Positions 26,232 to 30,256 of a DNA stretch of 64,000 bases are shown here, piece after piece. The DNA lies in contig NZ_MWQN01000001.1 in NCBI RefSeq assembly GCF_002024165.1, positions 6,696,001 to 6,760,000 on the forward strand, read 5' to 3'. Numbering within the stretch: position 1 is the first letter of the stretch; every line of letters begins with the position of its first letter. Both the position numbers and the translations under genes were made by a program. Source of the stretch: Embleya scabrispora (GTDB lineage Bacteria; Actinomycetota; Actinomycetes; Streptomycetales; Streptomycetaceae). A model generated the notes under the pieces. That model saw nothing but the letters and a program-made list of their open reading frames with translations, was not told the DNA's origin and made no database searches.

Positions 26232-27233
26232 TCAGGCCCCGTCCGCGAGCGCCCGCAGGGTGTCGTACGCGACCTGGATGAAGGGCCCCCGATCCCCCGT
26301 CGCCCGGTTCACCAGCGCGGCGAGTGCGACCCCGGCCTGCGGGCTGAAGCCCACGAACGTGGTGAACCCGCGCGTCGCGCCGCCGTGGAAGATCAGATCG
26401 TGCCCCCGACGCACCCGCAGGTTCCACACCAGACACAGCCGATCCCCGCCGCCGGGGCAGATCAGCCGAGGCCGCCGTACGTCCACCAACGCGCGGGCGA
26501 GCGAGGCGGGTCGCACCCCGGACGGATCCAGGTGCGCGGCCAGATACCGGGTCACGTCCGTCCCGCTGCTGCGCAGCGCGCCCGCCGCGGGCAGCCCCGG
26601 CATGTCCCACGGCGGCCGGGGCCGACCGCGCAGATACCCCGTCAGCTGCGGCCCGTTCGGGTCGCACGTGGTCATCGTCAACCCCAGCGGCACCCCGAGC
26701 CGGGCCACCACCAGGTCCGGATAGGGCATGCCGGCGGCGCGGGCGAGCGCGTGTCCGAGCAGTGCCACGCCCAGGTTGGAGTACAGCACCCGGGTGCCCG
26801 GGCGCGCGTGCGGTCGGGTTCGGCCGAGCAGGGCGAACAGGCGCCGCTCGGTGTAGCCCGCGTACGGGTTCGAGTACCACGCGGGCAACGCGGAGCGCAC
26901 CGTGCCGGGCGGCAGCCGGGGCAGCCCGGAGGTGTGCGTGGCCAGGTGCAGCAGTGTGACGGCCGAGGACCAGCGCGGCCGGGCGCCGGGCGGCAGGTAG
27001 GTGATCAGCGGATCGTCGAGGCGGGCCTCGCCGCGCGCCACCGCGTCGGCCAGCAGCAGCGCGGTGAACGTCTTGGTCACCGAGCCCAGTTCGAACCGGG
27101 AGTCGGCGTCCACCGCGGTCCCCCGGCACACCACCGACGACTCGCCCGCCCGGACCGTGCCCACGACCAGCGCGCCGGCCGAGGGCACGGTCCGCAACAG
27201 CGGCGCCAACAACCGTGCGGGCGACTCGCTCAC
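26232..27233 (-). CDS. serine hydrolase, class C beta-lactamase/esterase fold, cytoplasmic
   Basis: A 333-residue protein starting with GTG at 27233 in a 4-base GTGA overlap with the gene before it. RFELGSVTKTFTALLLADAV holds the S-x-x-K nucleophile and lysine (Ser51, Lys54), RVLYSNLGVALLGHAL the Y-x-N motif, and the HGGATRGFTTFVGF segment the third (KTG-like HxG) motif. No signal peptide, so it acts in the cytoplasm, unlike secreted beta-lactamases or DD-peptidases. It is the last gene of an operon headed by a small peptide gene; an esterase, peptidase or acyl-transfer role in that pathway is possible but inferred only from position. Confidence 0.88.
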   Translation of the reverse strand: MSESPARLLAPLLRTVPSAGALVVGTVRAGESSVVCRGTAVDADSRFELGSVTKTFTALLLADAVARGEARLDDPLITYLPPGARPRWSSAVTLLHLATHTSGLPRLPPGTVRSALPAWYSNPYAGYTERRLFALLGRTRPHARPGTRVLYSNLGVALLGHALARAAGMPYPDLVVARLGVPLGLTMTTCDPNGPQLTGYLRGRPRPPWDMPGLPAAGALRSSGTDVTRYLAAHLDPSGVRPASLARALVDVRRPRLICPGGGDRLCLVWNLRVRRGHDLIFHGGATRGFTTFVGFSPQAGVALAALVNRATGDRGPFIQVAYDTLRALADGA

Positions 27234-28159
27234 GCGGGCACGGGGGCCGCCGTGGTCCCCAGGGAGCGCGCCAGTGTGATGGTGCCGGCCACGATCGCCA
27301 CCACGGCGGTGTGCTCGTGGTCCTTGAACGCCTGCTTCGGGTCCTCGTCGATCGGGTCCGCGTCGCGCGGCAGCAGTCCGTCCTCGTGCTGTGCCGCCGC
27401 GAGCCGGTCCCAGCCCCGCGCGTCGCAGACCGGCTCGGTCAGACACGCGTCGACCGCCAACAGTTCGCCGACGAGGTCGAACTGCGACACCTCGGCCCAG
27501 ATGTCCACCCACACCGGCAACCAGAGCCGCAGATAGTCCTGGATCTCGGCGGGCAGCAGTTCGGGATGCGCCCCCCAGTCGGTGACGTGGAACACCGTGT
27601 GGGTCACGCAGTACGCGGTCATCCAGTCGATCAGCCACGGTTCGGGGGTCAGGCCCAACCAGGTGTCGGCGGCGAGCGCGGTCCAGTCGAATCGGCGGTT
27701 CGACCCGGCGACCCGGCTCGCGTTGGCCACCGCGAGTCGCCGGTTGGGCATCAGTTCGATCCCCTGTACCGAGCGCAAGTCGGCCAGGTGCTCCTGCAAC
27801 AGGTCCATCGGCTCGTGCCGCAGCCCCGCCCGGGCGAAGTGCGCGTACGTCTCCAGCGGATCGGTGATCAGGGGGTGCCGGAGTTGGCGCTCGTAGAGGA
27901 AGTTCCCGCACTGGAACTGCTCCCACGCGAAGCCGATCAGGTTGCGTGCGGTGGCCAGGTCGCTCGGCCCGGCGACCCCCTCGCGCAACATCAGGGAGGT
28001 GGCCAGCGCGGTCTCGCCGAGCGGTTTGTACGCGCCGTCGCGGTCGTTGAAGTCGACGATGGTGTGCGTGGGCAGGGTGCCGAACTCGGCGTTGTCGTGC
28101 AGCCAGCGCAGCGCCCGCGAGCCGATGGTGTGCGCGGTCTTGAGCACGTCGGCGTTCAT
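27230..28159 (-). CDS. unknown helical protein, DUF6895-like, in the peptide operon
   Basis: A 309-residue protein from ATG at 28159, overlapping the stop of the preceding gene (ATGA). It is rich in Trp, His and Leu helices: SRALRWLHDNAEFGTLPTHT, FAWEQFQCGNFLYERQLRHP, AYCVTHTVFHVTDWGAHPEL. Repeated helices with conserved His/Trp suggest an alpha/alpha barrel like terpene cyclases or LanC-type enzymes, but no full catalytic motif of either is seen. I recall similar proteins being labelled DUF6895, which an HMM search should test. It overlaps the following serine hydrolase by four bases, so all members are translated from one message. Function unknown; a peptide-tailoring role is inferred. Confidence 0.75.
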   Translation of the reverse strand: MNADVLKTAHTIGSRALRWLHDNAEFGTLPTHTIVDFNDRDGAYKPLGETALATSLMLREGVAGPSDLATARNLIGFAWEQFQCGNFLYERQLRHPLITDPLETYAHFARAGLRHEPMDLLQEHLADLRSVQGIELMPNRRLAVANASRVAGSNRRFDWTALAADTWLGLTPEPWLIDWMTAYCVTHTVFHVTDWGAHPELLPAEIQDYLRLWLPVWVDIWAEVSQFDLVGELLAVDACLTEPVCDARGWDRLAAAQHEDGLLPRDADPIDEDPKQAFKDHEHTAVVAIVAGTITLARSLGTTAAPVPA

Positions 28160-28893
28160 GAGCCCTCCAGCCCGGTCACGTGTTGGGCGATGCGGGTGTC
28201 GAGCACGGTACGGGTGCTGCCGCCGCCGAACAGCCGGACGTGGCGCAGCAGCGGCGCGAGGTCCAGCGGTACGGGGATGCCGTCGGCGGCCACCCAGGCG
28301 AGCCAGCGGGCGATCCGGGCGGCGGTGCGGTAGTCGCGGCGCAACATCGCCCGCACCAGTCCCCGGGACAGGGCCTCGACGCCTTCGCGGGCGGCGGTGT
28401 GGATGGGCCCGTCCAGGCCGGGCAGGGCCAGGGAGGACAGTTGGGCCATCCGTACCGACCAGGTCTGCCAGGACGTCGCGTCGGCGACCTGGGCGCCGTC
28501 GCCGGGGACGGGTACGTCCACGGTCAGGCCGAAGCGGGTCAGTGTGCGGGCGGTGGCCCAGTCGCGCCAGGTGACGATCCAGGCGGTGTCGGGCGTAGCG
28601 CCCACCGCGTCGGGCGGGAACACGGCGAACGCCCTGGCGGCGGCCTCGGCCCGATCGGTCGGGACGGGGGTGCCGCACAGGATGTGGGGGGCGAGCGCGT
28701 CGGAGCCCAGGACCCGCAGGCCGGGCAGGTCGGCGTCGGGGTCGAGGGTTTGTGCGGTGTGCAGGTCGGCGGCGGCGAATCCGGCGGGGACGACCGCGCC
28801 CCCGGCGTCCATGAGGACGCCGAGGGCCTGGCCTGCCACTCGCTCGACCGCCGCCGTGTAGTCCTCGTGAGGCGAGGTGCCGGCGAAGGGCAT
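28156..28893 (-). CDS. unknown protein (245 aa) in the peptide operon
   Basis: The frame opens with TTG at 28905, but ATG at 28893 (MPFAGTSPHEDYTAAVERVA) has GGAAAG about 12 bases upstream and is preferred. The protein is mostly helical: first half with GVLMDAGGAVVPAGFAAADL and APHILCGTPVPTDRAEAAAR, second half with RAMLRRDYRTAARIARWLAW and PLLRHVRLFGGG. No known enzyme motif, signal peptide or membrane segment is visible. It starts 54 bases after the small peptide gene and overlaps the next gene by four bases (ATGA). Function unknown; co-expression with the peptide and two other genes suggests a role in making, binding or processing it. Confidence 0.7.
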   Translation of the reverse strand: MPFAGTSPHEDYTAAVERVAGQALGVLMDAGGAVVPAGFAAADLHTAQTLDPDADLPGLRVLGSDALAPHILCGTPVPTDRAEAAARAFAVFPPDAVGATPDTAWIVTWRDWATARTLTRFGLTVDVPVPGDGAQVADATSWQTWSVRMAQLSSLALPGLDGPIHTAAREGVEALSRGLVRAMLRRDYRTAARIARWLAWVAADGIPVPLDLAPLLRHVRLFGGGSTRTVLDTRIAQHVTGLEGS

Positions 28894-28947
28894 GGTGGTG
28901 TTCAACTTTCCGTCGGAACCGGTGGTGTCACGGACGATTCGTCCGGG

Positions 28948-29127
28948 TCACCGCTCCTTCGGGGGCTTCGGGGACAGGAGCAAGCCGGCCAGCAGCAGGC
29001 CGACGCTGCCGAAGTCCTCCGGCACGAACAGAGGAGCGTCGCTGATGGTCGTCTCCTGCTCGATCATGAGCGTCGCGACGGTACCGGCGTGAACCGGCGT
29101 GGACTGACGAACGTGCTGAGTAAGCAT
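28948..29127 (-). CDS. small peptide (59 aa), candidate precursor of a ribosomal peptide
   Basis: ATG at 29127 follows GAGGGAG at eight bases and opens a 59-residue peptide. The first half is polar, leader-like (MLTQHVRQST, later MIEQETTISDA); then LFVPEDFGSV leads into a hydrophobic Gly/Leu run (residues 41-51, SVGLLLAGLLL), ending basic and Pro-rich (SPKPPKER). It has no Cys, so it is not a normal lanthipeptide, thiopeptide or sactipeptide core. It heads a leftward operon with two unknown proteins and a cytoplasmic serine hydrolase, the usual layout of a RiPP precursor. Alternatives are a membrane-active bacteriocin-like peptide or a small regulatory peptide. No recognised family. Confidence 0.65.
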   Translation of the reverse strand: MLTQHVRQSTPVHAGTVATLMIEQETTISDAPLFVPEDFGSVGLLLAGLLLSPKPPKER

Positions 29128-29210
29128 CGGGTGCTCCCTCGTGGTGACCTCATCGCCGGGCTCGGCGATGCCCCGTGTCTTCGACCATAGGCACTTTTTG
29201 TCCGGCTTTG

Positions 29211-29229
29211 CACCATTTGATGATTGGTG
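29211..29229. promoter_or_regulatory. inverted repeat and promoter region of the peptide operon
   Basis: The 235-base gap upstream of the peptide gene is locally AT-rich. CACCA-N9-TGGTG spans 29211-29229, and on the minus strand TATGGT about 40 bases further downstream could be a -10 hexamer; no good -35 was identified. The repeat is short, so this is a weak operator candidate. Confidence 0.35.
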
Positions 29230-29362
29230 TCGGTCGCCGTTTGTTTGGGGTGCGCGGGTGCGTACGGGGGTGCGTGGGGGAGTGTCCGCCGTCGGGCCGG
29301 ATTCGAGAGGCGGCGGCGGATCGGGTCGGCGAATCGGGGCCCACCAGCGGTTTTCGGGGAAC

Positions 29363-30256
29363 TCAGGGCTCGATGCGGGCCAGGCTGCCGGTCTCCAGGG
29401 CGACCCAGATCGCGCCGTCGGGGCCCTGGGCGAGGCCGTGCGGTTCGGCGGCGGCTCCGGGCAAGTCGTACTCCGTCAGAGTGCCCTTCGCGGTGAGGCG
29501 GCCGACCCGGTTCGCGGCCCATTCGGTGAACCAGCAGTGGCCGGCGGCGTCCAGCGCCACCGCGTGCGGGCGAGACTCCCGGTCCGGCAGCGGGAATTCG
29601 GTGAACTCGCCGGACACCGTGCGGCGACCGATCGCGCCCGCGCCGATCTCGGTGAACCACACCGAGCCGTCGGGGCCGGCCGCGATTCCGACCGGGGCCG
29701 CGCCCGGGGTGGGCAGCGGGTATACGGTCACCGCGCCGGTCGTGGTGATCCGGCCGAGCGCGTTCGCGGCGTTGAGGGTGAACCACAGCGCGCCGTCGGC
29801 GCCGGGAGTGATCGCCGACGGGAACGCGGCCGGGATCGGCAGGTCGAACGTGGTGACCGCGCCGCCCGGATCGATCCGGGCGATGCGGTTCGCGGCGGTC
29901 TCGGTGAACCACATCGCCCCGTCGGGGCCGCGGGTGATCCCGTAGGGCCCGGAATCGGCGGTGGGCAGGTCGAAGTGGGTCACCGCGCCGGTCGGGTCGA
30001 TCCGGCCGATGCGGTGGGCCCTGTACTGGGTGAACCACAGCGCGTCGTCGGGGCCCGTGACGAGCACGGTCGGGCCGCAGGCCGGGTCGCCGAGATCGTG
30101 GATCGTGGTCTGCCCGCCGGCGGGGTCCAGGCGGCCGATGCGACCGGCGTGCACCAGGGTGAACCACAGGGCGCCGTCCGGGCCGACGGCGATCGAGTAC
30201 GGGCCGGACTCGCGGTCGGCGACCGGGAGTCCGGTGATCGCGGCGGGGGTGGTCAT
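29363..30256 (-). CDS. virginiamycin B lyase-like beta-propeller protein
   Basis: A 297-residue protein made of about seven repeats of roughly 42 residues, each with the signature GxDGxxWFTxxxxxxIGRxD (for example GPDGAMWFTETAANRIARID), the seven-bladed propeller of the Vgb family. Streptogramin B lyase opens type B streptogramins without hydrolysis; the motif PHAVALDAAGHCWFTEWAAN contains the His expected in the catalytic region, and later Glu/His positions are plausibly kept. No signal peptide. It is divergent from a TetR gene with two operator palindromes between, the arrangement of an inducible resistance gene. Many homologues have other or unknown activities, so resistance is inferred. 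Confidence 0.85.
   Translation of the reverse strand: MTTPAAITGLPVADRESGPYSIAVGPDGALWFTLVHAGRIGRLDPAGGQTTIHDLGDPACGPTVLVTGPDDALWFTQYRAHRIGRIDPTGAVTHFDLPTADSGPYGITRGPDGAMWFTETAANRIARIDPGGAVTTFDLPIPAAFPSAITPGADGALWFTLNAANALGRITTTGAVTVYPLPTPGAAPVGIAAGPDGSVWFTEIGAGAIGRRTVSGEFTEFPLPDRESRPHAVALDAAGHCWFTEWAANRVGRLTAKGTLTEYDLPGAAAEPHGLAQGPDGAIWVALETGSLARIEP

Follow-up and report, generated by a model that had tools for sequence, protein, structure and literature searches.

What is the function of a gene of only 59 codons that heads a tightly packed run of three larger genes in Embleya scabrispora? The locus lies on the minus strand of a stretch of 64,000 nucleotides (contig NZ_MWQN01000001.1, positions 6,696,001 to 6,760,000; this whole stretch is referred to as the window). 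An earlier note on this DNA had taken it for a small-peptide operon with the layout of a pathway for ribosomally synthesized and post-translationally modified peptides (RiPPs) but with no known maturase. Re-deriving the frames from the sequence gave the same four genes, coordinates and overlaps. The putative precursor peptide gene (28948..29127, 59 amino acids (aa)) was assigned by translation, homologues, profile search and the ratio of nonsynonymous to synonymous substitution rates (dN/dS), and encodes a peptide of the form that we call type I. It is separated by 54 nt from the gene of a 245-aa protein without known family (28156..28893), which may have an accessory or recognition role. This gene overlaps via ATGA with that of a 309-aa protein (27230..28159), a candidate peptide epimerase of the family PF21836 (DUF6895) with an all-helical, (alpha/alpha) barrel-like model. 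A GTGA overlap couples the latter to the gene of a 333-aa serine hydrolase (26232..27233) with the predicted fold of class C beta-lactamases and penicillin-binding proteins (PBPs), a candidate peptidase or transpeptidase.

We infer that this cassette modifies a peptide. The reading that we favor, and to which we give about even credence on the basis of sequence comparison, is that it constitutes a self-contained, undescribed RiPP-type pathway, in which the DUF6895 protein would make D-residues and the hydrolase would cut or close the product near an LL/SP junction in the peptide. A Pfam scan of the ten flanking products between 21479 and 34170 revealed no YcaO protein, Lan enzyme, radical S-adenosylmethionine (SAM) enzyme, lasso enzyme or transporter, and no non-ribosomal peptide synthetase (NRPS) was found among them. 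The absence of YcaO, Lan, radical SAM and lasso genes, which had been claimed before, holds for these flanking products as well as for the four cassette proteins.

The four genes form a conserved unit

We compared 71 long loci, comprising 19 from named genomes, 51 from further genomes and the window. A total of 56 loci (18 from named genomes, 37 further loci and the window) have the gene of the 245-aa protein followed on the same strand by one or two copies of the DUF6895 gene and by the hydrolase gene. An upstream peptide gene is present in all 56 full cassettes; 55 of these were recovered by listing open reading frames and the remaining one, in locus L057, by pattern. The full set is lacking in 15 of the 71 long loci, most of which had been chosen as distant DUF6895 matches or suspected remnants. 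L063 has neither a hydrolase nor a recognizable peptide, and at L049, where DUF6895 is partial, we did not find the peptide, the 245-aa protein or the hydrolase. Of the first 50 loci, 48 gave a peptide homologue with tblastn, counting the window's own place. Among the 19 loci L032-L050, 13 have a 4-nt overlap between the peptide gene and the 245-aa gene.

Profile searches of 200 genomes of the window's family gave DUF6895 matches in 101 and matches to a peptide-only profile in 48. DUF6895 lies at a distance of 716-1082 bp from 45 of the 48 peptide-profile matches; the other three are located beside a 245-aa gene lacking the two enzymes (L154), in decayed remnants (L155) and on a contig fragment with no recognizable cassette (L156). 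Linkage of the peptide with the other genes and an intact peptide frame in relatives had been named beforehand as the points on which the interpretation would turn. Linkage is borne out by these 45 matches and by the 56 full cassettes, and the frame is intact at the tblastn loci, with dN/dS below 1 in all 20 pairs compared. In L154 (6429-7439) the peptide and the 245-aa gene persist, DUF6895 and hydrolase are gone, and the SP of the peptide is replaced by AA.

When the draw was enlarged, with some overlap, the peptide profile matched 71 of 394 genomes. Beyond the family PF21836 is rare: across the phylum it was found in 6 of 396 genomes, all from the window's family, and across the class in 30 of 394, including three other families and two weak matches. 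The 245-aa profile matched 18 of 394 class genomes, a count that is too low because in at least 5 genomes the profile fails to detect a gene that tblastn does recover. The cassette also occurs in another family of the class, where the peptide is of type III at 3 of the 5 loci. DUF6895 matches were present in 4 of 72,556 plasmid records; Kitasatospora fiedleri plasmid 2 carries the peptide, a 245-aa-type protein and DUF6895 annotated as hypothetical, and a 108-aa piece annotated as serine hydrolase. Neighboring genes vary among locus groups, some close groups having them in common. The four genes form a real, conserved unit occurring in different neighborhoods.

Varied neighborhoods, one plasmid record with the cassette and a small hydrophobic peptide would also be expected of a defense or toxin-antitoxin unit with a toxic peptide. 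We consider this highly improbable, as PADLOC gave no match to any of the four proteins (E up to 0.01) and conserved enzymes with kept active-site residues are a poor fit to a simple toxin-antitoxin pair.

Anatomy of the precursor peptide

Neither Pfam nor NCBIfam yielded a match for the peptide. Alignment of 25 type I peptides and entropy profiles divide it into three parts. The leader (residues 1-36, 29020..29127) contains the invariant residues M21, E23, E25, S29, A31, P32 and P36. It is followed by the core EDFGSVGLLLAGLLL (residues 37-51, 28975..29019), delimited by segmentation with a presumed exact leader/core boundary, and by the follower SPKPPKER (residues 52-59, 28951..28974), in which S52, P53 and P56 are invariant. 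Conservation is higher in parts of both leader and follower than in the core, which in pattern-matched peptides is mostly hydrophobic, rich in Leu, Ala and Gly and 8-16 residues long. The leader-like half, the hydrophobic core and the lack of Cys described previously were thus found again, and parts of the leader do exceed the core in conservation; the basic Pro-rich end had been counted with the core and is instead a conserved follower, giving three parts rather than two.

The related peptides fall into several forms. Type I follows the consensus MLxQ...LMxExEAxxSDAPxYxPE(A), a Leu/Ala/Gly core and SPKxPK. Type II follows ...(Y/F)RDxREC, core and SPPTPRPK, and is found in all 15 long loci having two tandem DUF6895 copies. 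Its cores, for example AALALTSSSSNLLL, GGGLLLAGLLLI and AYLALLAGGGALLL, show a free middle between almost fixed REC and SPPTPRPK flanks. The window peptide contains no Cys, like 68 of the 75 type I peptides, while all 40 type II peptides contain it, as their pattern requires. Type III peptides end in ...EPxEDxxxGxVQNLAxAxAF and come from three loci of the other class family and two of the window's family. The peptide of L059 is divergent and has no LLSP. A fourth form was seen once (L062, 6416-6619), with a poly-Gly core GGGGGWGGGGGGG followed by LLLLSVGKPKK, unlike the Leu-rich cores. Among the pattern-matched peptides 112 of 115 carry SP and 3 carry AP, which is no evidence for the motif because the search pattern itself demands SP or AP; the unbiased figure is the invariance of S52-P53 in 25 of 25 aligned type I peptides. 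This anatomy, read from sequence, makes the interpretation as a precursor well supported.

The dN/dS values, which range from 0.07 to 0.60 in the 20 type I pairs selected by hand, point to purifying selection on the whole peptide, as would be seen in a partner protein. The peptide could accordingly be a small structural or regulatory partner such as an anchor, activator or subunit, with the operon making or degrading something else. A hydrophobic stretch between constant flanks could serve as a docking element, and a transporter gene is missing from the scanned flanks. We nevertheless regard a partner role as unlikely. The core varies while its flanks are nearly fixed, especially in type II, and L062 has a poly-Gly core. 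A membrane-spanning helix takes about 18-20 residues, for which a core of 8-16 residues is short.

Core lengths follow a further regularity. Counted from the final anchor residue of the leader (Pro in type I, Cys in type II) up to SP or AP, the core has an even number of residues (8, 10, 12, 14 or 16) in 113 of 115 unique pattern-matched peptides, a set that omits the unmatched type III peptides (L064, L065, L112, L113, L115) and those of L059, L062 and L154. Leader and follower are of even length in 40 and 62 of the 115, respectively. The rule is post hoc because it was noticed after seeing the core segmentation; even cores make up 64 of 65 in the first batch and 49 of 50 among the peptides gathered afterwards. 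Counting distinct core strings, 85 of 87 are even. On trees of the 245-aa protein (quick method) a minimum of 13 changes in core length (12 in type I and 1 in type II) includes 2 changes in parity, compared with 33 and 22 for the leader and 23 and 19 for the follower (Fisher p 0.0027 vs. leader and 0.0002 vs. follower; plain binomial at one half 0.011). The window core with its 15 residues is one of the two odd exceptions, and that of Embleya hyalina has 14. Even lengths are hinting at an enzyme that handles the core two residues per step, as an extended strand or with alternating D- and L-residues. The rule is a concrete and unusual constraint, open to direct test.

Cassette enzymes and a proposed pathway

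The 309-aa protein, which had been called DUF6895-like, matches PF21836 over residues 14-292 with 271.2 bits (curated cut-off 23.8, E 1.4e-80), and this is its sole Pfam match. By the title of its report, one DUF6895 enzyme is an epimerase acting in lasso peptide modification (Shi et al., ACS Catal. 2026, as listed in the references of PMC13352647). The absence of a known maturase asserted earlier is therefore not quite right: classical RiPP enzymes are indeed missing from the scanned flanks, but a family member has been reported, by that title, as a lasso-peptide epimerase. Residues E49, H187, E232 and H283 each occur in 72 or 73 of the 75 DUF6895 sequences from cassettes, in all 15 sequences of either tandem copy and in all 4 proteins aligned from outside cassettes, which also have D194. 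Structure prediction gave an all-helical model (predicted local distance difference test score (pLDDT) 78.5). VIA-align matched it over its length to (alpha/alpha) barrel enzymes (Z 13.8 to 10.5 for the matches listed, which include GH88/GH105 hydrolases, type II terpene cyclases and cellobiose 2-epimerase). This is weak support and no proof of relation, because mostly helical models without a clear match typically reach a best Z of 14. Foldseek returned no match at E <= 0.001, and no solved structure related by sequence was found at E up to 10.

DUF6895 genes were also met in other settings. A second contig of the same genome has a distant one coding for 452 aa (L083, 8504-9862), with no cassette 245-aa gene or hydrolase detected alongside. 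In L144 (6420-10610) a distant DUF6895 gene (413 aa) comes after genes for a metallopeptidase-like protein, a 75-aa peptide and a methyltransferase and before one for a TauD oxygenase, possibly another DUF6895-linked peptide pathway. In two genomes (L141, 7973-10217, and L142, 6567-9778) DUF6895 genes adjoin similar-looking proteins of about 240 aa, a Methyltransf_24 protein in the case of L142, which additionally carries a P450 gene. A DUF6895 relative of 29.6% identity is encoded on a megaplasmid of the betaproteobacterium Cupriavidus oxalaticus (L158, 5001-5858), where cassette partners are not detectable.

The hydrolase matches PF00144 over residues 36-314 of 333 (E 3.3e-51), with an active-site set of S51/K54, Y151/N153 and H283 (SxxK/YxN/HxG). 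This agrees with its description as a cytoplasmic SxxK enzyme, no N-terminal signal peptide being visible by eye. S51, K54 and Y151 are each kept in 56 of 57 sequences and H283 in 55. The protein stays below the NCBIfam cut-offs for bla_class_C (95.5 vs. 415 bits) and AmpH (123.7 vs. 266 bits) and under cut-off for the best 25 of 46 NCBIfam families. PBP-type thioesterases use Ser, Lys, Asn and His as catalytic residues and link an L-residue at the N-terminus with a D-residue at the C-terminus, according to the accessible part of a review of macrocyclizing thioesterases (PMC11735501).

For the 245-aa protein neither Pfam nor NCBIfam gave a match (Pfam none for 17 of 17 members), and no sequence relative was found in the PDB at E up to 10. 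Kinship with DUF6895 was considered and rejected (hhalign probability 0.9%). Of the two structure predictions that had been proposed, that of the 309-aa protein gave a usable model, whereas that of the 245-aa protein was poor (pLDDT 55.3) with an unusable Foldseek list, and we claim no fold for it.

A candidate epimerase beside a PBP-type serine enzyme and peptides with an SP follower suggest cleavage or closure at a D-residue near LL/SP. In the proposed pathway the 245-aa protein would bind leader or follower and present the core, and the DUF6895 protein would invert at least one core alpha-carbon, with its conserved Glu and His residues serving as acid and base. The hydrolase would then form an acyl-enzyme on the D-residue beside the LL/SP junction, expelling the SP follower, and would either hydrolyze or cyclize the product. 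As no transporter or leader protease was seen beside the cassette, the product might leave by general export routes or remain intracellular. The choice between hydrolysis and cyclization and the number of inverted residues carry our lowest confidence. Locus L154, where both enzymes are lost and SP has become AA, is a single case in line with SP-linked processing.

Several points weigh against this pathway. Its chemistry is deduced from the title of a single report on the family, a weak similarity at the level of fold and the residues of the active sites, and the window's DUF6895 protein is likened to the lasso epimerase by family and by that title. D194 varies more than E49, H187, E232 and H283 do, being present in 14 of 15 sequences of one tandem copy and 12 of 15 of the other. 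N153 of the hydrolase is kept in 51 of 57 sequences, and its profile matches class C beta-lactamase structures best, so that a plain hydrolytic or an unrelated role is possible. No second domain above cut-off was found in it, unlike the PBP-type thioesterases with their lipocalin-like C-terminal domain. The role of the 245-aa protein is a guess, given its poor model. The SP motif is missing in some peptides, type III having Sxx or Exx, L062 SVG and L059 no comparable site. Neither a dedicated transporter nor a leader protease is encoded in the scanned flanks.

The same fold comparison leaves room for a different reaction. The DUF6895 model sits alike among glycoside hydrolases, type II terpene cyclases and cellobiose 2-epimerase, so the fold leaves the reaction unfixed. 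One member need not represent the whole family, others of which adjoin a P450 gene (L142) or a methyltransferase gene (L144). The peptide might then be modified by something other than epimerization, with the hydrolase as a plain peptidase removing follower or leader. We hold this to be rather unlikely, since peptide epimerization is, as far as found and as judged by its title, the sole DUF6895 reaction reported, and nearly all aligned members, whether from cassettes or not, have E49, H187, E232 and H283. The RiPP-like interpretation from which we started is thus supported in part, by linkage, a kept frame and a conserved leader, and amended with regard to the maturase and the two-part peptide.

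Epimerization with release or closure near LL/SP, as we favor, can be extended to account for the even cores. The cassettes might make D,L-alternating hydrophobic ribosomal peptides, mostly Leu/Ala/Gly-rich and of 12 or 14 residues. DUF6895 would invert every other residue, which would confine length changes almost entirely to steps of two, and the PF00144 enzyme would release the peptide or close it head to tail after a D-residue. We regard this specific form as quite doubtful.

Surroundings of the cassette and comparison with known systems

The ribosome binding site claimed for the peptide gene corresponds to the Shine-Dalgarno sequence GAGGGAG at 29134..29140 (minus strand); GAGG is invariant in the 25-row alignment and most of the 25 relatives have GAGGAGG. 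Upstream of it, alignment and covariation point to a hairpin in the 5' untranslated region, CATCGCCG-AGCC-CGGCGATG (29151..29170, minus strand). It lies 5' of the type I Shine-Dalgarno sequence with a stem of 7-8 bp that differs among lineages with compensating changes. In the alignment 86.6% of cells are paired, compared to 19.6-58.1% in slid controls. The covariation score is 0.480 vs. a shuffled mean of 0.341, a value as high occurring in 0 of 500 shuffles, though relatedness among the sequences can raise scores of this kind. Both sides are changed in 25 cells vs. 10.6 in shuffles; pairs with double changes (4 vs. 3.3) and further pair types (11 vs. 11.5) do not exceed the shuffles. An Rfam scan of 28900-29400 gave only a chance-level match (14.6 bits vs. 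a gathering score of 45). The hairpin is a candidate for a cis-acting RNA element or operator.

The flanking products include a Dak kinase, a virginiamycin B lyase family protein, a TetR regulator, an APH-type phosphotransferase and GNAT proteins. The virginiamycin B lyase family gene (PF24684, E 5.1e-134; 29363-30256, minus strand) is located directly 5' of the cassette, and a similar gene is found at the same place in L032 and, by eye, in L087. L032, from Embleya hyalina, is the closest named locus, with 89% identity in DUF6895.

How does the cassette relate to described systems? Like RiPP pathways, it keeps a precursor gene beside the same enzymes (45 of 48 profile matches; 56 of 56 full cassettes), and entropy profiles reveal a conserved leader and a variable core, with a conserved follower besides. 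Lasso cyclase and protease genes are not among the ten flanking and four cassette proteins. The features of lanthipeptides are likewise absent, the window peptide being free of Cys and the flanks free of Lan enzymes. MslH belongs to a family other than PF21836. An MslH-type enzyme is a lasso peptide epimerase (PMC10406935, accessible part), thus like the candidate here an epimerase of RiPPs, but the window enzyme matches PF21836 only. With the lasso DUF6895 epimerase of Shi et al., as far as its title tells, the cassette enzyme has the Pfam family name and ribosomal-peptide modification in common; it differs in being tied to the 245-aa protein and a PF00144 hydrolase. The PBP-type thioesterases SurE, PenA and Ulm16 resemble the hydrolase in their Ser/Lys/Asn/His active site but act on non-ribosomal peptides (PMC11735501, accessible part), whereas the enzyme here has no second domain, its substrate would be ribosomal and no NRPS flanks it.

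As a defining feature of each was looked for and is missing, the comparison suggests a RiPP-type cassette outside the lasso, lanthipeptide and PBP-thioesterase groups that fits no described class found. No title or abstract opening describing it was found in the literature covered, which excludes most subscription journals and supplements, for example those of a machine-learning RiPP screen (PMC7794033) whose main text was covered by word search only. If the proposed pathway is correct, one that is common in the window's family, judging by DUF6895 in 101 of 200 genomes, has stayed undescribed. A peptide epimerase and a serine enzyme dependent on D-residues would here act together on a ribosomal substrate, and short genes could yield D-residue-containing or cyclic peptides.

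The products of proteusin epimerases and linear gramicidin have a neutral hydrophobic core with alternating D- and L-residues. Such an alternation would explain the even register of the cores described here, but the scanned flanks hold no radical SAM or NRPS genes. Should the D,L alternation be true, stand-alone enzymes would, without radical chemistry, be making a ribosomal equivalent of linear gramicidin or of cyclic D,L-peptides with an even number of residues.

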